Positions 1 to 18,081 of a stretch of DNA of 34,223 nucleotides are shown in pieces. The stretch comes from Gemmatimonadota bacterium. GTDB lineage: Bacteria > Gemmatimonadota > Gemmatimonadetes > Longimicrobiales > Gaopeijiaceae. Below the pieces are notes generated by a model that searched no databases, had not been told where the DNA came from, and saw nothing but the letters and a program-made list of their open reading frames with translations. Position 1 is the stretch's first letter. The number at the start of each line of letters is the position of its first letter. The stretch is taken from positions 1-34,223 of the forward strand of contig PXFI01000134.1 of assembly GCA_003564295.1 (NCBI GenBank), given 5' to 3'. A program made the position numbers and the translations under genes.

Positions 1-408
1 ATGAGGTTCGTGCCGGTGGGCCGTGAGGATCAGAAACTGCCTGACCCCGTGGTTCTCCCAATCCGCCAGGAGCTCGTTCATGACCCGGTGGAGGGTCTTT
101 CGCCGGAGTCCGGCGGATCCTGCGAAGCTCTCCGCCCCGGGGCCCCTCACGCCGAAGCGAAAGGTAGGAGCCAGGAGTGTTCCGCATCTCCTGGAAACCT
201 CCCGCCCCACCTCTTCCGCAATGAGGGTGTTGGCGCCGAGGGGAAGGTGAGGGCCGTGCTGGATCAGGGCCCCCACAGGAAGGATCAAGCGGGGATCCCG
301 GGCCAGGATGCGTCCCACCTCCGGCCAGGGGAGGTGCTCCAGGTGCCATGACCAGCCAGCTTCCTCGGTCTCGGCCGTCGGGCCAGGTGATTCTCGCTCA
401 TCCGGCAT
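1..408 (-). CDS. Creatininase-family amidohydrolase, N-terminal part (3' end outside window)
   Basis: This gene is not in the ORF track because it runs off the left edge; I read it by reverse-complementing. It starts at ATG 408-406 behind a GAGGAG Shine-Dalgarno five bases upstream, and about 136 residues are visible. The core LPVGALIQHGPHLPLGANT matches the creatininase/MftE-type family block (usually PVGSxEQHGPHLPLGTD). It is followed by a long helix and, at the window edge, AHRHEPH where the family normally has NGHGGN or NGHYEN. The family comprises metal-dependent amidohydrolases acting on cyclic or C-terminal amides. Two residues that normally bind metal are changed: the Glu of EQH is Ile and the Asp of GTD is Asn. 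It could therefore be a non-canonical or inactive member. Its 5' end overlaps the divergent kinase ORF by 61 bp. The substrate is unknown. Confidence 0.82.
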   Translation of the reverse strand, partial: MPDERESPGPTAETEEAGWSWHLEHLPWPEVGRILARDPRLILPVGALIQHGPHLPLGANTLIAEEVGREVSRRCGTLLAPTFRFGVRGPGAESFAGSAGLRRKTLHRVMNELLADWENHGVRQFLILTAHRHEPH

Positions 409-3400
409 GGCATCTCCTCTGGGTGGGGGTCGTGGGTCTCGTGGCATGGGCCCGATGGCTTTCGCCCTGGTGGCTCCTGGCGCCGGCTGCCTCGGTGCTG
501 GTCTGGGTAATCTTCCGCCCCTCGGGGCGGCCTGTCCATAAAGCGGCGGTCCTGGTGCTCCTCCTGGGAACCCTGGCGGGTTTCTTCGCCCAGCGCCAGG
601 TGGATGGATCAGGTTATTCCAATGGTGACACCCGGAGTCTCCGGGAAGAGCGGGTCTCCGCTGCCCTCTCCAGGCGGTTCGAGGTACTCCTGGACACGGG
701 GGACAAGGTTGTCCGGGAGGCCCTGGCTCTCCTGGAAGAACCGGAGCCTCAGGACGTTCAGCGAAGGCTCTCCCGCCTCCAGCGGCGCCGGAACGTTACC
801 GCCCTGGCCCTTTACGATGCCGAGGGTGGTCTCAAGGCCTGGGTGGGTGTACACCGAGGTCAGGTGCCGCCGACCATACGGATGGGGGAGGCTCCCTATG
901 CCTTCGGGGGGGGACCCCTGTTCCGGTACCTCTACTTCACCGCACGGAGCCCGGAAGGGAAAGGCACTGCCGTGGCGGCGGTGCTCCTGCAGGCGAATCT
1001 TCCGGCGGGCCTGGAGGGTGGTGGGTTCGTTTCCCGATTCCGTCGCGACACGGCGATTCCCATTCAGATCCTCCCTCCGGAACGGGTGACGGGGCCCGCC
1101 GTGTGGGATCTCTGGTGGGGCGGAGAACCCCTCCTGAGCGTTTCTCTGGACGAGCTCGGCTTGCAGGAGTACTGGGTTCCCCGGGTCCGGTTCTGGGTTC
1201 GGGTGATGGTGTTGCTTGCTATAGCGACCTGGATCCTCCTGGTGGCGGGAGGGAAGGATCTTCCGGGCTTCCGTGCCGGAGCCTCGGCGTCTCTCGTCCT
1301 GGTGGGAGCCCTGGTGCCGACCGGGGCGTTCTGGCCAGGGACCCACCTGACCTCTCCCGCCCAGTTTCTCCTTCCTCTCCCCTTGGGTGGGGTCACGTTG
1401 GGCCAGATCCTTGGGATTGCCGTGGCCCTGGGGGTACTCTGGGGGCTATTCCCGCCGCAACGCCGGAACTGGGCCGGACCCCTGGCGGCCGGCGGCGTTT
1501 TGGCCTTGGCCTTCCCGATCCTGGATGCCGTGCTTCGACTGGGCCCCTCCCCGGCCCTCCTGTCCGGGGGAGCGGCGGGCTGGCTGCCTTACCAGATCAC
1601 ACTGGCCTTGGCCCTGTCCCTGGCGGCGTGCTGTTCTCTCTGTGCGGCTGAAAACGGATCACCTCGGGTGAAGGCACAATGGCTGCTCGGGGGCAGCATT
1701 GTCCTCACTCTCGCCCTGGCTGTGGCAGGAGCCCTTCTCGCTCGCTCCGGGCCAGGGCTTTCCCCTTGGTTCCTGGTAGCCTGGGGGGCGCCTGGCTACC
1801 TGGCGGCACGGGGCCTGGTCGGGTTGGGAAGGACCCGGAGATTGCTGTGCTGGCCATTGGCGGCACTCCTGGGCTCCACAGCAGCGCTTCCGGCGGCCTG
1901 GGGAACGCAGATCGAGGCCCGCATGGCTGAGGCTGAGGGGTACCTGAGGGAGCTCAGCGCCGAGGCCGATCCCTACCTGGAATTCCGACTCCTCAGGGTC
2001 GGAGAGGTGGCCGACTCCCTCAGCACCATCATCCCCTCCCCGGTGGAATTCCTCTTCGAAGTCTGGGCGGAGACCGGCCAGCAGGACGACCCTCTTCCCA
2101 TGTGGCTCACCCTCTGGTCTCCCGGGGACCTGCCCCGTGAGGATCTCGCCATGGGCGTCTACGGCAACAGGCCTCCGGAGGCTGGCGACTTCCTCGATCT
2201 GGCCCGGGAGGAGGGGGCCCCGGTGATCCGGCACCTTGGCCTGGCGGATGCCCGGTATCTTCTCCTGGTGCCCCTGCGAGGGGGGTTTGTGGTCTCCGCC
2301 GTGGTGCCCCCCAAGGGATCCCTGTCCCTTTCCTCTCCCCTGGGGCCCATCTTCGCCCTGACGGGTCGTACCTGGATGGATTCTCCGAGCCTCGTTCAGG
2401 CGCCGGGAGGGCAGGTGATGGAGCCTGGGGAGGGGGTCCGATGGGAGCTGACGCAGGACGGGTGGCGAGGCAGCTTCCCCATATCGTACCCGGAAGGGTG
2501 GTATCTGGGCAGACAGACGGTGGCCCTGCCCGGAATGCTTCACATGATCGCCCGGGGAACGCTGGTCCTCTCCCTCAACCTCCTCGTGATCCTGACCATC
2601 TGGGCATTGGGCCGGATCCTTGCCCGGGGCAGGGAGCTGCAGATCAAGGAGACATGGCGGTTCCTGGGGACCTTCCGAGCCCGGGTCACCCTGGCCCTTT
2701 TCGGCTTCTTCCTTCTGTCCATCGCCATCTTTGGCACCCTCGCCTTCAGGACCCTCTCGGGCGCCGCTCAGAGAACCGCCGCTGCCCTGGCGGAGCGTCT
2801 GGTGGAGGACGGGGCCGGTTTCTATCCGGAAGTGGCCGGGTCCATGCCGCTACTGGCCAAGGAGGTGGGTGCGGACCTCCTGGAGTACAGGGGGGGAGAG
2901 CTGAGGGGAGGATCCGCAGAGGAGCTCGTGGAGTTGGGTCTCTATGAGACGTGGATTCCGGAGCCGGTCTTCCGCACTCTGGAAGATCTCACGGAGATCC
3001 GTGCCAGCCGTCTGTCCTCCCTGGGGAACTGGGATTACGTCATGGCCTATCGGCGCCTCTCCGACCGAGACATCCTGGCGACTCCCGTGCCGCTGGAGGT
3101 GGGAGCCATGGCTCTGCGCCGACAGGAGGTGACGGAGCTCTTGGGCTTCGCCATCGTCATGGGTGCGGGCCTGTCCCTCTTCCTGGCCCTGCTGGTGGGC
3201 AGGACCCTCACCAGACCCATCGAGATTTTGCAGGTTGCTTCCGAGAGAGTCGGGTCGGGAAACCTGGGTGTGCGTCTCCCGGAAGACCGGAGCGACGAGT
3301 TCGGTGCCGTCTTCCGCGCCTTCAACCGCATGGTACAACGGATCCACAGGGCCCGGCGAGCCCTCCTCCGGACCACCCGCCGGACCCAGGCCATCATGGA

Positions 3401-4421
3401 GGAAGCCGCCATGGGGGTGGTGGCCCTGGATGCCGGGGGACGGGTCACTCTGGTGAATCCCAGGGCCGAGAGACTCCTGGCCGAGAAGATTTCAGTGGGA
3501 CAACCCCTTCCTGGTCTTCGGGGAGAGGCCCGGGAGCTGGTCCGCTGGGTGGATCTCTACTTCCGAGACGGAATCCGGGAAGCCAACACGGAGCTTCAGC
3601 TGGGCAACCGGCGCATCCGGATCCGAGCTCGCCGGGTGTCCGGAGAAGGGCCTTCCGGCGGTGCGGTTCTCAGCATGGAGGATGTGACGGATGAGCTCAG
3701 GACGGAACGAATCCTGGCCTGGGGAGAAATGGCTCAACAGGTGGCCCATGAGGTGAAGAACCCTCTCACCCCGATGAAGCTCAGCGTTCAACATCTGCAG
3801 CGGGCCTGGGAAGACCGGCGCGTCGATTTCGGCGACATTCTGGGCAAGAACGTGGATGTGATTCTGAAGGAGATCGACCATCTGGCCGCCATCGCCCGTA
3901 GCTTCTCCAGGTTCCGTGCTCCAGGAGAGACGGTGGAGGTCCCCTTGCAGCCCGTGGACATCCACGCGGTGGCGGAGGAGGTCCTCAACCTCTATCGTGG
4001 CGGGAAGGGCGTCCTATCCTTCCGGTGTGCCGTGCCATCGGGTCTTCCCCCGGTTCAGAGCCGGGAGGATGAGCTCCGGGAGGTCCTGATCAACCTCCTG
4101 GAGAACTCCAGGGCGGCGGTATCGGAGCAGGGAGAGGTGGTGATAGAGGCCGAGCCTCTGAACGGAAGGGTGGAGCTCAGGGTCAGGGATGACGGGACGG
4201 GTATTCCGAGGGAGTTCCTCCCCCGGATCTTCGAGCCCCACTTCTCCACCCGCTCCACCGGGACGGGTCTCGGTCTGGCCATTGTTCGGCGGCTCGTGGA
4301 ATCATGGGGTGGCGTGGTTTCTGCGGAGAGCCGGATCGGGAGCGGTACGTTGATGCGCATCGAAATCCCCCTTTGGGGTGCGGGGAAGGACGCAGAGGGA
4401 GAGGAGGATCCATGGATCTGA
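348..4421 (+). CDS. Very large NtrY-like membrane sensor histidine kinase
   Basis: This is a 1357-residue kinase, far longer than the roughly 700 residues usual for NtrY. Visible order: three N-terminal membrane segments (about 22-81); a first extracytoplasmic region (about 85-278); a cluster of seven or eight hydrophobic segments (about 280-515); a second soluble region (about 515-725); a membrane pair; a third soluble region (about 800-915); a last membrane segment; HAMP (about 945-1005); PAS (about 1020-1085); HisKA; and HATPase_c. The phosphoacceptor is His1134 in AHEVKNPLTP. The ATPase shows an N box (INLLENSRAAV), DDGTGIP and GTGLGLAIV near 1304. It should sense an envelope signal and phosphorylate a response regulator; no regulator gene is adjacent. 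The start is uncertain: ATG 348 has a poor Shine-Dalgarno and overlaps the divergent creatininase gene. GTG 387, 423, 432 or 441 are alternatives. The 3' end overlaps the next gene. Confidence 0.9.
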   Translation: MTSQLPRSRPSGQVILAHPAWHLLWVGVVGLVAWARWLSPWWLLAPAASVLVWVIFRPSGRPVHKAAVLVLLLGTLAGFFAQRQVDGSGYSNGDTRSLREERVSAALSRRFEVLLDTGDKVVREALALLEEPEPQDVQRRLSRLQRRRNVTALALYDAEGGLKAWVGVHRGQVPPTIRMGEAPYAFGGGPLFRYLYFTARSPEGKGTAVAAVLLQANLPAGLEGGGFVSRFRRDTAIPIQILPPERVTGPAVWDLWWGGEPLLSVSLDELGLQEYWVPRVRFWVRVMVLLAIATWILLVAGGKDLPGFRAGASASLVLVGALVPTGAFWPGTHLTSPAQFLLPLPLGGVTLGQILGIAVALGVLWGLFPPQRRNWAGPLAAGGVLALAFPILDAVLRLGPSPALLSGGAAGWLPYQITLALALSLAACCSLCAAENGSPRVKAQWLLGGSIVLTLALAVAGALLARSGPGLSPWFLVAWGAPGYLAARGLVGLGRTRRLLCWPLAALLGSTAALPAAWGTQIEARMAEAEGYLRELSAEADPYLEFRLLRVGEVADSLSTIIPSPVEFLFEVWAETGQQDDPLPMWLTLWSPGDLPREDLAMGVYGNRPPEAGDFLDLAREEGAPVIRHLGLADARYLLLVPLRGGFVVSAVVPPKGSLSLSSPLGPIFALTGRTWMDSPSLVQAPGGQVMEPGEGVRWELTQDGWRGSFPISYPEGWYLGRQTVALPGMLHMIARGTLVLSLNLLVILTIWALGRILARGRELQIKETWRFLGTFRARVTLALFGFFLLSIAIFGTLAFRTLSGAAQRTAAALAERLVEDGAGFYPEVAGSMPLLAKEVGADLLEYRGGELRGGSAEELVELGLYETWIPEPVFRTLEDLTEIRASRLSSLGNWDYVMAYRRLSDRDILATPVPLEVGAMALRRQEVTELLGFAIVMGAGLSLFLALLVGRTLTRPIEILQVASERVGSGNLGVRLPEDRSDEFGAVFRAFNRMVQRIHRARRALLRTTRRTQAIMEEAAMGVVALDAGGRVTLVNPRAERLLAEKISVGQPLPGLRGEARELVRWVDLYFRDGIREANTELQLGNRRIRIRARRVSGEGPSGGAVLSMEDVTDELRTERILAWGEMAQQVAHEVKNPLTPMKLSVQHLQRAWEDRRVDFGDILGKNVDVILKEIDHLAAIARSFSRFRAPGETVEVPLQPVDIHAVAEEVLNLYRGGKGVLSFRCAVPSGLPPVQSREDELREVLINLLENSRAAVSEQGEVVIEAEPLNGRVELRVRDDGTGIPREFLPRIFEPHFSTRSTGTGLGLAIVRRLVESWGGVVSAESRIGSGTLMRIEIPLWGAGKDAEGEEDPWI

Positions 4422-6509: not shown

Positions 6510-7889
6510 CTACATCTCCCGGACCTCCCTCACCAGGTCTTGCATGGAAGGCTTCGCGGATCCGAAGAACATCATGGTTTTGTCCATGTAGAAGAGGGGG
6601 TTGTCGATGCCGGCGAAGCCCGGGCTGAGGCTCCTCTTCATGATGATGACGTTCCTGGCATAATCCACGTCCAGGATGGGCATGCCCGCGATGACGCTGT
6701 CGGGCTTCCGGGCATCGGGGTTCACCACGTCATTGGCTCCCACGATGAGGGCCACGTCCGTGTCCTTGAACTGGTCGTTGATCTCTTCCAGGTCGTAGAG
6801 CTGGTTGTAGGGCACGTCGGCCTCGGCAAGGAGGACGTTCATGTGCCCCGGCATGCGTCCCGCCACCGGATGGACGGCGAACTTGACGTCCACACCACGC
6901 TCCTCCAGGAGGTCGCAGAGCTTCTTCAGGTCGTGCTGGGCCTGGGCCACCGCCAGGCCGTAGCCCGGCACCACCACCACCGATTGACAGTAGGCCAGGA
7001 TCATGGCAGCGCCCTCGGCGTCCACGGAGCGAGCCGTCTTGTCACCGGCCCCGATGGAAGCGGCCGTGGCCCCCTCCGTCCCGAAGCCCCCGAACATGAC
7101 GTTGGCCAGAGAACGATTCATGGCCTTGCACATCAGATTCGTCAGGATCAGGCCAGCGGCTCCCACCAGCGCCCCGGCGATGATGAGGATCATGTTCCCC
7201 AGGATGAACCCGGCCGCCGAGGCCGCAAGCCCCGAGTAGGAGTTCAGGAGGGAGATGGCCACCGGCATGTCGGCGCCGCCGATGGCATTAACCAGGAGGA
7301 TTCCCAGAATGAGGGCCGCTGCGATGAACACCAGGAAGAGGACCATGCTGGGATCCTGGACGGCGATGTACGTCCCGACGCCCAGGAGCCCGACGAAGAT
7401 CAAGGCCGTTACGGCCTGCAGGAACTTGTTGGTAACCGGATTGCCCGTGATCCAACCGGCGAGCTTTCCGAAGGCCACCACGCTTCCCGAGAAGGTCACC
7501 CCTCCGATGAGCATCCCCAGCATGATGGTGGAGCCTTGGCCCAGGGGAAGCACTCCAAAGGGCTGGAGGCGTACGAACTCGGCTCCGGCAACCAGAGCTG
7601 AGGCCCCGCCTCCGAATCCGTTGAAGATTCCCACCATCTCGGGCATGGACGTCATCTTCACCATCCGGGCTGCCGTGGCCCCGATGAGGGAGCCAATGAT
7701 GATCCCCGTGACGATCCAGGTCCAGGTGAGAACGTCCTGCTCCACCAGCGTGACCACGATGGCCAGGAGCATGGCCGCCGAGGCCATGACATTGCCCTTC
7801 CGGGCCGTGGCGGGAGAGGAAAGCTGCTTCAGGCCGACGACGAATAGAAGCGCCGACACGAGATAGGCGAACTGCGTGACCAGGTTCAC
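6510..7889 (-). CDS. pntB: NAD(P) transhydrogenase subunit beta
   Basis: This is a 459-residue protein, the usual length for PntB. The N-terminal half carries about eight or nine hydrophobic segments forming the proton-conducting dII half. The C-terminal soluble dIII domain binds NADP(H): GYGLAVAQAQHD, HPVAGRMPGHMNVLL, LIVGANDVVNP and IIMKRSLSPGFAGIDNPLF are all intact. The enzyme couples inward proton flow to hydride transfer from NADH to NADP+, supplying NADPH. The start is GTG 7889-7887 with a GAGGG Shine-Dalgarno seven bases upstream. It is the last gene of pntAA-pntAB-pntB. It ends toward the decarboxylase with a strong palindrome between them. Confidence 0.96.
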   Translation of the reverse strand: MNLVTQFAYLVSALLFVVGLKQLSSPATARKGNVMASAAMLLAIVVTLVEQDVLTWTWIVTGIIIGSLIGATAARMVKMTSMPEMVGIFNGFGGGASALVAGAEFVRLQPFGVLPLGQGSTIMLGMLIGGVTFSGSVVAFGKLAGWITGNPVTNKFLQAVTALIFVGLLGVGTYIAVQDPSMVLFLVFIAAALILGILLVNAIGGADMPVAISLLNSYSGLAASAAGFILGNMILIIAGALVGAAGLILTNLMCKAMNRSLANVMFGGFGTEGATAASIGAGDKTARSVDAEGAAMILAYCQSVVVVPGYGLAVAQAQHDLKKLCDLLEERGVDVKFAVHPVAGRMPGHMNVLLAEADVPYNQLYDLEEINDQFKDTDVALIVGANDVVNPDARKPDSVIAGMPILDVDYARNVIIMKRSLSPGFAGIDNPLFYMDKTMMFFGSAKPSMQDLVREVREM

Positions 7890-7950: not shown

Positions 7951-8247
7951 TCATTTCTTCTTGAACATCTCGAGCATTCTGTCGGTCACCAGAAACCCGC
8001 CCACCACGTTGATGGAGGCGAAGATGATGGAGACCAGCCCCAGGATGACGACCACCGGCTCCCGGGCCATTTCGGCTTCGGCAGAGACGATGAGGGCGCC
8101 GATGAGTGCGATACCGGAAATGGCGTTCGCACCGGACATGAGGGGCGTGTGAAGCGTCGGGGGCACCTTTGTGATGACCTCCTTCCCGGCGAGGGTCGCC
8201 AGGACGAAGACGTATAGGGCCACCAACATGATTGGCATGCTTTCCAT
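7951..8247 (-). CDS. pntAB: NAD(P) transhydrogenase subunit alpha, membrane part (PntAB/PntA2)
   Basis: This small membrane protein of 98 residues corresponds to the C-terminal dII portion of E. coli PntA, encoded here as a separate gene. This split arrangement is known from Rhodospirillum and other bacteria. Three or four hydrophobic helices are visible, with the conserved stretch PPTLHTPLMSGANAISGI followed by ASINVVGGFLVTDRMLEMF. ATG 8247 is preceded by GGGAG about eight bases upstream. It sits between pntAA and pntB and completes the membrane domain together with PntB. Confidence 0.94.
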   Translation of the reverse strand: MESMPIMLVALYVFVLATLAGKEVITKVPPTLHTPLMSGANAISGIALIGALIVSAEAEMAREPVVVILGLVSIIFASINVVGGFLVTDRMLEMFKKK

Positions 8248-8294: not shown

Positions 8295-9434
8295 TCAGGC
8301 TGCGCCCAGGGCTTCCTTGGTGGGTCCGTGCCTCACTTCGTTCTGGAAGGTGAGGCACACACCGTCCAGAACCTCGTTCTCCCAGTTCAGATGGATGGAG
8401 CCGTCCTCCTTGTTCACCATCTCCATGACGAAGGTGACGAGGTTCTTGGAGAACATCTGACTGGCGTGGTAAGGCATGGATGCCGGGAGGTTAACCGGCC
8501 CCAGGACCATGACACCGTTGTGGACCACGGTCTCGCCCGCCTTCGTCAGCTCGCAATTGCCTCCGCTCTCGGAGGCCAGGTCGACGATGGCGGATCCGGG
8601 CTTCATGCTCTCCACCATTTCCCTGGTGATGAGGATCGGGGCCTTGCGTCCCGGGATCTGTGCCGTGGTGACCACGACATCAGCGTCCTTGATGGACCCG
8701 GCGATGAGCTCCAGCTCCTTCTGGTGCTGGTCTTCGGTCAGCTCCTTCGCATACCCGGCCTCGTCCTCCAGCTCTGCCGAGAGCTCCATCTCCAGGAACT
8801 TCGCTCCCAGGCTCTCCACCTGTTCCTTCACGACCGGCCGGACGTCGAAAGCCTCCATCCTGGCTCCCAGCCGGCGGAAGGTGGCCAGGGCCTGAAGCCC
8901 GGCGACGCCGGCACCCAGGACGAGTGTCTTGGCGGGCCGGATCGTTCCGGCCGCCGTGGTGAGCATGGGGAGGAACTTCCCGATGGCGTTGGCTCCCAGG
9001 AGAACCGCCTTGTACCCCGCCACTGTGGCCTGGGAGGAGAGGATGTCCATGGTCTGCGCCCGGGTTATGCGGGGCATGAGGTCCAGCGCCATGGTGGTGA
9101 TGCCCGCATCCTTGAGAGCCCTCACCACATCCAGATTGGCCGAGGGTTGGAGCGAGCAGACCAGGATGTGGCCCTTCTCGAGAATTCCCACCTCGGATAC
9201 CGTGGGGGGAAGGACCTTCGCCACCACGTCTGCTCCAGCTAAGGCGGAAGCTGCGTCCGGGGCGATGGAGGCGCCCTCCGCCTCGTACATGGCGTCCAGG
9301 AACCCGGCGTCGAGGCCGGCGTCCTTTTCCACCACGACCTGGATCTCCTTCTTCACCAGGAATTTCACGCCCTCCGGGACGAGGCCCACGCGGCTCTCGT
9401 TTGGATTGGTTTCCCTCAGGACCGCGACCTTCAT
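8295..9434 (-). CDS. pntAA: NAD(P) transhydrogenase subunit alpha, NAD(H)-binding part (PntAA)
   Basis: This is the soluble dI domain, 379 residues, related to alanine dehydrogenase. It begins with MKVAVLRETNPNESRVGLVP. The Rossmann loop GAGVAG is at residues 174-179, with an acidic residue (Asp197 in AFDVRP) that selects NAD(H) over NADP(H). The SSQATVAGY segment near 133-141 is the family's RQD-loop region. It binds NADH at the cytoplasmic face and passes hydride to NADP+ in PntB. ATG 9434 has CGGAG about seven bases upstream. It is the first gene of the operon and lies about 45 nt downstream of the start site predicted from the sigma-54-type promoter. Confidence 0.95.
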   Translation of the reverse strand: MKVAVLRETNPNESRVGLVPEGVKFLVKKEIQVVVEKDAGLDAGFLDAMYEAEGASIAPDAASALAGADVVAKVLPPTVSEVGILEKGHILVCSLQPSANLDVVRALKDAGITTMALDLMPRITRAQTMDILSSQATVAGYKAVLLGANAIGKFLPMLTTAAGTIRPAKTLVLGAGVAGLQALATFRRLGARMEAFDVRPVVKEQVESLGAKFLEMELSAELEDEAGYAKELTEDQHQKELELIAGSIKDADVVVTTAQIPGRKAPILITREMVESMKPGSAIVDLASESGGNCELTKAGETVVHNGVMVLGPVNLPASMPYHASQMFSKNLVTFVMEMVNKEDGSIHLNWENEVLDGVCLTFQNEVRHGPTKEALGAA

Positions 9435-9488
9435 GCGTCAACTCCGGGTTGGCGAGCGATTGTGTCGATCATGTCGAGCACGGGCCTT

Positions 9489-9504
9489 AGCAAGCTACGT
9501 GCCA
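9489..9504 (-). promoter_or_regulatory. Sigma-54 (-24/-12) promoter for the pnt operon
   Basis: On the minus strand the sequence TGGCACGTAGCTTGCT matches the RpoN consensus TGGCACG-N4-TTGCW at every fixed position. The predicted start site is near 9478, about 45 nt before pntAA. Sigma-54 promoters need an AAA+ activator, and one of this class is encoded at 16720-18081. A weaker sigma-70-like reading (TGCCAC region with TAGCTT) overlaps the same bases. Confidence 0.65.
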
Positions 9505-9583
9505 ATAGGCGACCGTGGCAGGATCCATCGGTGGAACCTGCATGAGGACTCAGCGGTGGAGTCCACAGGCCACTAAGGTAGCA

Positions 9584-9624
9584 CGCTTTGGGCGGGTCGC
9601 AATGTCCCAAGGACCCAAAGAGCG
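9584..9624. repeat. Imperfect inverted repeat, candidate activator site
   Basis: CGCTTTGGG and CCCAAAG(A)GCG face each other across a 21-nt loop in the pntAA-amidase divergent gap. The centre lies about 100 bp upstream of the -24 element of the pnt promoter, a usual distance for sigma-54 enhancer sites. Binding by any protein is inference. A shorter palindrome, GTGGAGTCCAC, lies at 9556-9566. Nothing else is recognisable in the 262-bp gap. Confidence 0.35.
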
Positions 9625-9696
9625 TTGCGCCACGGCCCGCCCGGCGCCATGGTGCGTGAGTGAGCGTTACCTTGCCCCTTTTCCCGAGGATTCCTC

Positions 9697-11427
9697 ATGG
9701 CCCATCATGCCGATTCCGTGGGAGAGCCTTCTGCTGTGGAGGGTCTCAATCGTCGTGACTTCCTGTCCTATTTTTCCGGAATCGGGTTGTCCGGAACCCT
9801 TCTTCCCGGCGTGCTGTGGGCCAGGTTCCAGGAACACCGGCAGCTCACGGCGGAAGTTCTGGCAGAGGCGGAGAAGGTGGCCGGTCTCGAGTTCACGGAG
9901 GAGCAGAGGGAGGAGATGGTTCGGGGGCTGAACGGAAACCTTCGGCAGTACCAGGCCCTCAGAGAGCTTACCATCCCCAACGAAGTCCCCCCGGCTCTGC
10001 ACTTCGACCCCATGCTTCCCCACATGCCGGTCCCCTCACTGGCCCGTCCGCCTCGACCCAGCCGGGTACCCTCCATCCAGTTGCCGGGGGACCTGGAAGA
10101 TGTGGCCTTCTGGCCCTTGCTTCACCTGGCCGAGCTCGTGAAGAGCCGCCAGGTGACGGCCGAGGCCCTCACCCGCATGTACCTGGGCAGGCTCAAGCGC
10201 CACGGCCCCGACCTGGAGTGCGTCATCAACCTCACCGAAGAGCGAGCCCTCCGGCAGGCCCGCCGGGCGGATGAAGAGATCGTGGCAGGCCGGTATCGGG
10301 GACCTCTGCACGGGATTCCCTGGGGAGCCAAGGACCTTCTGGCCGTGAGGGGCTATCCCACCACCTGGGGTGCTCGGCCCTACCAGGACCAGGTCATCCA
10401 TGCCGACGCGGAGGTGGTGAAACGCCTGGACGAGGCGGGGGCGATCCTGGTGGCCAAGCTCACCCTGGGGGCCCTGGCCATGGGGGACGTCTGGTTCGGG
10501 GGCCGCACACGGAATCCATGGGACCTGGAACAGGGGTCCAGCGGTTCGTCGGCAGGCTCGGCGGCCGCCACCGTCGCAGGACTGGTGGGCTTCTCCATCG
10601 GTAGCGAGACGCTGGGGTCCATCGTCTCCCCCGCCACCCGATGCGGAGCCACGGGTCTGCGGCCCACCTTCGGGCGGGTGAGCCGGGCCGGTGCCATGGC
10701 CCTTTCCTGGAGCATGGACAAGCTGGGCCCCCTCTGCCGGACGGTGGAGGATTGCGCCCTGGTCCTGGACGCCATCCACGGGGCTGACGGTCTGGACCCC
10801 ACGGCCAGGACCCTTCCCTTCAACTGGGATGCCCATGAGCCTCTTTCCGAGATCCGAATCGGTTACTACCGGCGTGCCTTTCAGGAGGGGGACAGCCGTA
10901 CCAGGGACCTGGACCTTCTGGCGCTGGAAGCCCTCCGGGGGTTGGGGGTGGATCCCGTTCCCGTGGACCTGCCCGGGGAATTCCCCGTGGGAGCGCTGAG
11001 GATCATCCTGAACGCCGAGTCCGCAGCCGCCTTCGACGACCTGACCCGAAGCGGACGGGACAGTCTCCTGGTGCGGCAGGACCCCGGGGCCTGGCCCAAC
11101 AGCTTCCGGCAGGCCCGTATGATCCCGGCGGTGGAGTTCATCCAGGCCAACCGGATCCGGACCATGATCATGGGCGCCATGGACGTGGCAATGGAAGGGG
11201 TCGACGTCTTCATCACCCCCTCCCACTGGGGGAATCTCCTCCTCATTACCAACCTTACGGGGCACCCGGTGGTGGTGGTGCCTTCGGAACTCGACGAGGA
11301 GAATCGCCCGGCCAGCATATCTTTTGTTGGAAGGCTCTGGGGGGAGGCCCATGCCCTGCGGGTCGCCAAAGCCTGGCAGGATGCCACGGGTCACCATCTG
11401 AAGCACCCGCCACTGTTCGCCGGGTGA
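9697..11427 (+). CDS. Tat-exported amidase-signature hydrolase
   Basis: This 576-residue protein belongs to the amidase signature family, which hydrolyses amide bonds with a Ser-cisSer-Lys triad. All three residues can be placed: Lys212 (WGAKDLL), Ser284 (GSSAGSAA) and Ser308 (SETLGSIVSPA); the 24-residue Ser-Ser spacing equals that of FAAH. The N-terminus has a twin-arginine signal, NRRDFLSYFSGIGLSG, so the folded enzyme is probably exported or anchored outside the cytoplasmic membrane. This argues against a role as GatA. About 130 residues separate the signal from the amidase core. ATG 9697 has GAGGA six to seven bases upstream. It converges on the HAD hydrolase. Substrate unknown. Confidence 0.9.
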   Translation: MAHHADSVGEPSAVEGLNRRDFLSYFSGIGLSGTLLPGVLWARFQEHRQLTAEVLAEAEKVAGLEFTEEQREEMVRGLNGNLRQYQALRELTIPNEVPPALHFDPMLPHMPVPSLARPPRPSRVPSIQLPGDLEDVAFWPLLHLAELVKSRQVTAEALTRMYLGRLKRHGPDLECVINLTEERALRQARRADEEIVAGRYRGPLHGIPWGAKDLLAVRGYPTTWGARPYQDQVIHADAEVVKRLDEAGAILVAKLTLGALAMGDVWFGGRTRNPWDLEQGSSGSSAGSAAATVAGLVGFSIGSETLGSIVSPATRCGATGLRPTFGRVSRAGAMALSWSMDKLGPLCRTVEDCALVLDAIHGADGLDPTARTLPFNWDAHEPLSEIRIGYYRRAFQEGDSRTRDLDLLALEALRGLGVDPVPVDLPGEFPVGALRIILNAESAAAFDDLTRSGRDSLLVRQDPGAWPNSFRQARMIPAVEFIQANRIRTMIMGAMDVAMEGVDVFITPSHWGNLLLITNLTGHPVVVVPSELDEENRPASISFVGRLWGEAHALRVAKAWQDATGHHLKHPPLFAG

Positions 11428-16719: not shown

Positions 16720-18081
16720 ATGGCCAGAATCCTCATTGTCGACGACGAGGAATCCATCGGCGACGCCCTCCAACAAGTCTTCGAGTACGAAGGGCATGAG
16801 GTCCGGGTGGCCCGGAACGGACCCGATGCTCTTTCCATGGTGGAAGAGAGTCCTCCCGACATCGTATTCCTGGATGTGAAGATGCCGGGAATGGATGGTC
16901 TCGAGGTCCTGGAGCGCCTGCGAGGGGCCGATCCCAATGCCCTGGTGGTCATGATCAGCGGCCACGGTACCATCGACACTGCGGTTGAGGCCACCCGGAA
17001 AGGGGCCTACGACTTCCTGGAAAAGCCTCTGGACACCGACCGTCTCCTGGTGACCCTTCGCAACGCCCTGGCCGTGAAAGGACTCTCCGCAAGCGTGGAG
17101 AGACTTCTGACCGAGGTGCAGAGTCGCCACGAGATCGTCGGCTCGTCCTTCCAGATCCGCCAGGTTCTGGAGAGGGTCGAGAAGGTGGGTCCTACGGAAG
17201 CCCGGGTGCTCATCAGGGGGGAGAACGGAACGGGAAAGGAACTCGTAGCCCGAGCTCTGCATCGCCTTTCCTCCCGGCGAGATGAACCCTTCGTGGAGGT
17301 GAATTGCGCGGCGATTCCGTCCGAGCTTATCGAATCGGAGCTCTTCGGCCACATCAAGGGGTCCTTCACGGGGGCCGTGGCGGATCGGGCCGGTAAGTTC
17401 GAACAGGCCCACGGAGGTACACTCTTCCTCGACGAGGTCGGAGACATGTCCTTGGCGGCCCAGGCCAAGGTTCTCCGGGCCCTGGAGCAGGGGGTGGTGA
17501 CCAGGGTAGGGAGCTCCAAGGCGGTGCGGGTGGATGTCAGGGTGGTGGCGGCCACGAACAAGGATCTCGAGGCCGAGATCAGGGAGGGGAGCTTTCGGGA
17601 GGACCTCTTCTATCGCCTCAACGTGGTGCCCATAGAGGTTCCTCCCCTTCGGGAGCGAAGGGAAGACATACCCATGCTCGTGCAGCACTTCGTGACCCTC
17701 CTCCAGCGCAACGATGGGGTAACACCCCGAAAGATCTCCCGGGAAGCCATGGAGCGGCTCCAGGCCCTGGAATGGCCCGGGAATGTTCGGGAGCTCCGAA
17801 ACACGGTGGAACGGCTCCTCATCCTTTCCTCCGGGGATTCCATCGAGGCTGAGGACGTTGAATTCCTGGTCTCGGGGGGCGCAGGTGGGGTTTGCCTCGG
17901 GGCCGAGATGCTCGATGCCGAGACCTTCAACGAGTTCAAGGAGCGGGCGGAGCGGGCCTACCTTCTGCAGAAGCTCCGGGACCACGACTGGAACGTGTCC
18001 GAGACGGCCCGATCCGTGGACATGCCCCGGTCGAACCTCTACAAGAAGATCGAGCGTTATGGCCTGGTCCGGGAGGAGTGA
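16720..18081 (+). CDS. NtrC-family sigma-54-dependent response regulator
   Basis: This 453-residue protein has the three standard domains. The receiver (1-120) has Asp52 in FLDVKMPG as phosphoacceptor. The AAA+ domain (about 138-370) has Walker A GENGTGKE at 167-174, Walker B TLFLDEVGD near 234-242 and arginine-rich FREDLFYRLNV. A Fis-type helix-turn-helix ends the protein (NVSETARSVDMPRSNLYKK). The sigma-54 contact loop reads GSFTGA (214-219) rather than the usual GAFTGA. It should activate RpoN promoters after phosphorylation. The NtrY-like kinase at 348-4421 is a possible partner but is 12 kb away. The Shine-Dalgarno is weak. Confidence 0.94.
   Translation: MARILIVDDEESIGDALQQVFEYEGHEVRVARNGPDALSMVEESPPDIVFLDVKMPGMDGLEVLERLRGADPNALVVMISGHGTIDTAVEATRKGAYDFLEKPLDTDRLLVTLRNALAVKGLSASVERLLTEVQSRHEIVGSSFQIRQVLERVEKVGPTEARVLIRGENGTGKELVARALHRLSSRRDEPFVEVNCAAIPSELIESELFGHIKGSFTGAVADRAGKFEQAHGGTLFLDEVGDMSLAAQAKVLRALEQGVVTRVGSSKAVRVDVRVVAATNKDLEAEIREGSFREDLFYRLNVVPIEVPPLRERREDIPMLVQHFVTLLQRNDGVTPRKISREAMERLQALEWPGNVRELRNTVERLLILSSGDSIEAEDVEFLVSGGAGGVCLGAEMLDAETFNEFKERAERAYLLQKLRDHDWNVSETARSVDMPRSNLYKKIERYGLVREE

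Follow-up and report, generated by a model that had tools for sequence, protein, structure and literature searches.

A candidate sigma-54 promoter precedes the proton-translocating transhydrogenase operon in a clade of Gemmatimonadota

The stretch of DNA analysed here (the window, 34,223 nucleotides from a Gemmatimonadota genome) carries three genes, arranged in order on the minus strand, that Pfam and NCBIfam models together identify as a proton-translocating transhydrogenase operon. The first, pntAA (8295-9434), encodes subunit alpha 1 of NAD(P) transhydrogenase, a protein of 379 amino acids with AlaDh_PNT_N/C domains that scores above the cut-off for the NCBIfam model PRK09424 (Re/Si-specific transhydrogenase alpha). 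It is followed by pntAB (7951-8247), encoding the 98-amino-acid membrane subunit alpha 2 (PNTB_4TM), and by pntB (6510-7889), encoding the 459-amino-acid subunit beta (PNTB, E 5.5e-180). Upstream, a gap of 262 bp (9435-9696) separates pntAA from a divergent amidase gene on the plus strand (9697-11427). No copy of this amidase gene turned up between pntAA and the adjoining genes in three close relatives, where it has probably been lost; we rejected the idea that it is a new insertion, as it also adjoins pntAA in several distant family members (G006, G004 and G018).

Within the gap, the minus strand at 9489-9504 reads TGGCACGTAGCTTGCT, an exact match to the sigma-54 consensus TGGCACG-N4-TTGCW. 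In this -24/-12 core, TGGCACG-TAGC-TTGCT, the GG lies at 9503-9502 and the GC at 9491-9490, a spacing of exactly 10 nt. The core is on the same strand as pntAA, is directed at it, and ends 54 bp before its ATG (9434), so the initial annotation, which had placed an exact RpoN consensus about 55 bp ahead of the gene, was right in both sequence and distance. Counting 12 nt past the C of the -12 element, spacing alone predicts a minus-strand transcription start at 9478 and a leader of about 44 nt.

It had also been claimed that a chance match in a gap of this length was very unlikely, and simulation agrees. In Markov-simulated upstream regions of the same dinucleotide make-up, an equally good site arose with p = 5e-5 for the window, and with p = 5e-4, 2e-4 and 9e-3 for the pntAA upstream regions of three relatives. 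The exact consensus occurs nowhere else in the window and did not arise in any of 100 dinucleotide-preserving shuffles. The bare GG-N10-GC pattern, with 595 matches in the window, is uninformative and was set aside as evidence. Across the whole genome to which the window belongs (3.34 Mb in 369 contigs, 89% complete), the exact consensus occurs twice, before pntAA and before nqrA, and allowing up to one mismatch gives 25 matches versus 20 for a reversed control pattern. With strict and looser patterns alike, genome-wide counts were not clearly above this control, and we rejected them as proof of a sigma-54 site. Because the counts barely beat the control, it is position and conservation that carry weight.

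A search of the family, covering 121 genomes, returned only three others with a PntAA 75-79% identical to that of the window (G029, G100 and G019), giving a close clade of four genomes in three genera, the window's own and two further ones. In each of the three relatives, a strict GG-N10-GC site that includes TTGCT precedes pntAA by 82-121 bp. Their cores, GGGCACGGTTATTGCT at -84, AGGCACGGATGTTGCT at -82 and GGGCATGGATATTGCT at -121, all conform to GGCAYG-N4-TTGCT. A four-way alignment of the upstream regions has a mean column identity of 52%, while all four sequences agree throughout the core's GGCA, G and TTGCT. Conservation of the GG and GC dinucleotides in related genomes had been proposed as a check, and both are kept, along with TTGCT, in every close relative. 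No strict site with up to two mismatches was found in 31 more distant pntAA upstream regions, and the same absence held when the scan was widened to 500 bp in the 27 regions that were re-scanned. Presence in four of four clade members and in none of the distant regions makes the site a property of the clade, and we conclude that the predicted sigma-54 promoter of pntAA-AB-B is specific to it.

The motif is also positioned like a promoter elsewhere in the clade. GGCAYG-N4-TTGCW occurs only 3-7 times in each of the four genomes, and a looser form 16-21 times. Among 69 distinct GGCAYR-N4-YTGCW sites, whose surrounding genes were called by a codon-usage model trained on the window and which include non-independent orthologous sites, 39 are intergenic and no more than 250 bp before a gene on the same strand; random positions in the four genomes satisfy this in 4-6% of cases, and the mirror arrangement accounts for 12 of the 69. 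Recurrent orthologous targets are pntAA, dnaK (at 95-102 bp) and hsp20 in all four genomes, a TPR lipoprotein gene in three, and genes for pairs of secreted proteins. Among the targets seen in one genome only, nqrA, alanine dehydrogenase and a penicillin-binding protein belong to the window's genome, and G019 contributes a second hsp20, a multihaem cytochrome and a molybdopterin oxidoreductase. The second exact consensus match (G000:C102:8811-8826, L145) lies just upstream of nqrA, which belongs to the sodium-pumping NADH:quinone reductase, and a sigma-54-like site lies about 70 bp ahead of the gene for alanine dehydrogenase, which is homologous to PntAA (G000:C115:4892-4906, L149).

The dnaK site extends well beyond the clade. 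With up to three mismatches, a strict site precedes dnaK in 30 of 30 genomes of the family and order, and with up to two mismatches in 26 of them (L226-L255; L151 in the window's genome). Taken with the promoter-like placement described above, this indicates that the motif serves this lineage as a promoter. The dnaK sites are themselves preceded by two dyads that approximate CTGCCA-N3-TGGCAG, usually some 30 bp from each other and significant by shuffling (p < 0.05) in 28 of the 30 genomes, and the hsp20 promoters of all four clade members combine a similar dyad with a sigma-54-like site (L222, L211, L201 and L210). In G100 and G029 the dyad also occurs in its exact form, CTGCCA-N3-TGGCAG, at a distance of about 21 bp from a clpB-like gene (L256 and L257). 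The dyad is not enriched genome-wide over its control. These sites point to a sigma-54 heat-shock regulon that appears to be ancestral in this lineage. Chaperones including DnaK and IbpA/Hsp20 lie under predicted sigma-54 promoters in Bacteroidota and Planctomycetota (PMC12316311), a regulon that the dnaK and hsp20 sites resemble; the dyad pair before dnaK is a point of contrast with it, and the main text of that study includes neither Gemmatimonadota nor a transhydrogenase. The dnaK site across family and order would thus extend predicted chaperone control of this kind to another phylum. The same dyad was considered as an activator site for pntAA and rejected, as it is absent from three of the pntAA promoters and matches in the window only with three mismatches. 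That the pntAA promoters lack the dyad of dnaK and hsp20 implies a different activator.

Sigma-54 promoters require an activator that hydrolyses ATP in response to a signal. Of 59 genomes searched for rpoN, 58 have the gene. The absence of rpoN had been named as a way in which the promoter assignment could fail, and the window's genome encodes a full-length RpoN that appears functional, with the RpoN box ARRTVAKYRDQL near its end. The genome also encodes ten strong Sigma54_activat proteins of the enhancer-binding type. GAFTGA or GSFTGA could be read in seven of these, the rest being cut by contig ends or unmatched by the pattern.

Two further elements of the gap lie upstream of the core. On the minus strand at 9575-9602 is a sigma-70-like element, TTGCGA-N16-TACCTT, of which TTGCGACCC...TA--TT is common to the window, G029 and G100 in the four-way alignment and weaker in G019. 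A strict TTGACA/TATAAT scan does not call it, so the element is only tentative; it may be a source of basal pntAA expression. At 9540-9570 lies an inverted repeat with 12-nt arms, 83% complementary and 7 nt apart (GGACTC-N7-GAGTCC on the minus strand). By eye, similar dyads are present in G029 (TTCCTC-N7-GAGGAA) and G100 (TTCCTC-N7-GACGAA), with none in G019. The repeat and its counterparts are a possible operator or activator site, weak and not convincing. No activator-binding motif common to all four pntAA promoters emerged when one was sought.

Given the exact core, its direction and distance from pntAA, the presence of rpoN and activators, conservation in the clade, and the promoter-like placement of the motif genome-wide, we propose that 9489-9504 functions as a sigma-54 promoter for pntAA-pntAB-pntB, a reading to which we assign a probability of about 0.87 from sequence analysis. 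RNA polymerase carrying RpoN would be held at the -24/-12 elements as a closed complex and would start near 9478 only upon ATP hydrolysis by an enhancer-binding activator. Inducible transcription would thereby be layered on basal expression that the weaker sigma-70-like promoter about 80 bp upstream would supply. NADPH supply in the clade would then probably be switched by a signal-responsive activator, and not by a housekeeping promoter alone.

The sigma-70-like element also allows an arrangement in which sigma-54 polymerase acts mainly as a roadblock or competitor to the upstream promoter, keeping pnt expression down until the block is cleared by an activator. Three or four of the four genomes do carry a conserved TTGCGA-N16-TA--TT ahead of the core and pointing the same way. 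However, the element is weak and escapes a consensus scan, and the sites of the same type before dnaK and hsp20, with their dyads upstream, resemble ordinary activator-driven promoters, so we think a roadblock improbable. That the sequence resembles the consensus by chance and has no function would fit the one-mismatch counts, which hardly exceed those of the reversed pattern, but it is very hard to reconcile with retention of the core in four of four close relatives at differing distances from the start codon. Equally remote is the prospect that the conserved block binds some other factor, an ECF sigma or a repressor, whose site happens to look like a -24/-12 element. We found no biochemical data on RpoN specificity in Gemmatimonadota, which leaves some room for this reading; against it, the RpoN is canonical, and the positions that do not vary match those of sigma-54 promoters, with GG-N10-GC spacing fixed over dozens of sites.

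If the sigma-54 promoter operates as proposed, a candidate for its regulator is encoded nearby, on the plus strand at 16720-18081. The product has a receiver, an AAA+ domain and a Fis-type HTH (Pfam Response_reg, Sigma54_activat and HTH_8), and its best NCBIfam model is NtrX, at 477 bits, under the cut-off of 600. A possible partner is the NtrY-like membrane histidine kinase at 348-4421 on the plus strand (HAMP, PAS, HisKA and HATPase). This kinase is unusually large, at 1357 amino acids, and most of the family members examined have it close to pnt, often with an NtrX-like activator in the neighbourhood. In this refinement of the promoter reading, the kinase would drive the NtrX-like protein in a local redox-sensing circuit, an assignment that we hold as tentative and rather unlikely. 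The two genes flank pnt in the window, and the NtrX-like gene lies within about 5-7 kb of pnt in G019 and G100. The protein has GSFTGA in place of GAFTGA, as in the relatives too, and this is compatible with contact to sigma-54: the validated activator LevR likewise has serine at this position (A2 to S; PMC3162934). On the other hand, NtrX was not found on the stretches of G029 examined, although that genome has the pntAA site, and the window's genome encodes nine other activators. Many family members retain all or part of the order kinase, decarboxylase, pnt, YifB, NtrX, and several keep the NtrY-pnt-YifB-NtrX neighbourhood without a pntAA site. Since this neighbourhood is ancestral and persists where the site is absent, we rejected it as proof of regulation; it does not decide whether NtrX drives pntAA. 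The initial annotation had drawn attention to this activator as a partner for the promoter. Its nearness to pnt stands, but it is equally near in relatives without the site, and attempts to define an activator-binding site did not succeed.

The suggestion that sigma-54 control of pntAA-AB-B is not a described theme accords with our literature searches. Phrase searches returned no report of such control for a proton-translocating transhydrogenase (pntAB), a weak negative given that they covered few subscription papers, and they brought up two near precedents. In Azoarcus sp. BH72, the transhydrogenases azo1003-1005 are strongly induced within a gene set analysed as the NifA regulon (PMC3916325); that case is proteobacterial and linked to nitrogen fixation, and no obvious RpoN/NifA site was predicted upstream. 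In Bradyrhizobium sp. DOA9, a -24/-12 RpoN site is predicted for sthA, a pyridine nucleotide transhydrogenase gene (PMC13207237), but the enzyme is soluble and does not translocate protons, and both gene and phylum are unrelated to the pnt operon described here. The clade's site agrees with classical -24/-12 promoters in sequence, spacing and orientation, and in the accompanying RpoN and AAA+ activators, and differs from them in its target, which we did not find reported as sigma-54 dependent. The operon would be a new target of a known promoter class. With a selected sigma-54 promoter in front of their main proton-driven NADPH source, these bacteria would gate reducing power by a sensed condition, and the site offers a testable entry into gene regulation in a phylum with few cultured members.

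As to what is sensed, a redox or energy signal is our leading guess, because the other exact consensus match precedes nqrA and a further site precedes alanine dehydrogenase. One could go further and suppose that pnt in the clade, and nqr and alanine dehydrogenase in at least the window's genome, make up a sigma-54 redox and energy regulon added to the ancestral chaperone regulon and activated by the NtrYX-type pair adjacent to pnt; we regard this fuller scheme as unlikely. Alanine dehydrogenase (ald) has a sigma-54 promoter in Desulfovibrio vulgaris (PMC4641369), and the ald of the window's genome likewise has a -24/-12-like site, though the phylum and the activator differ.
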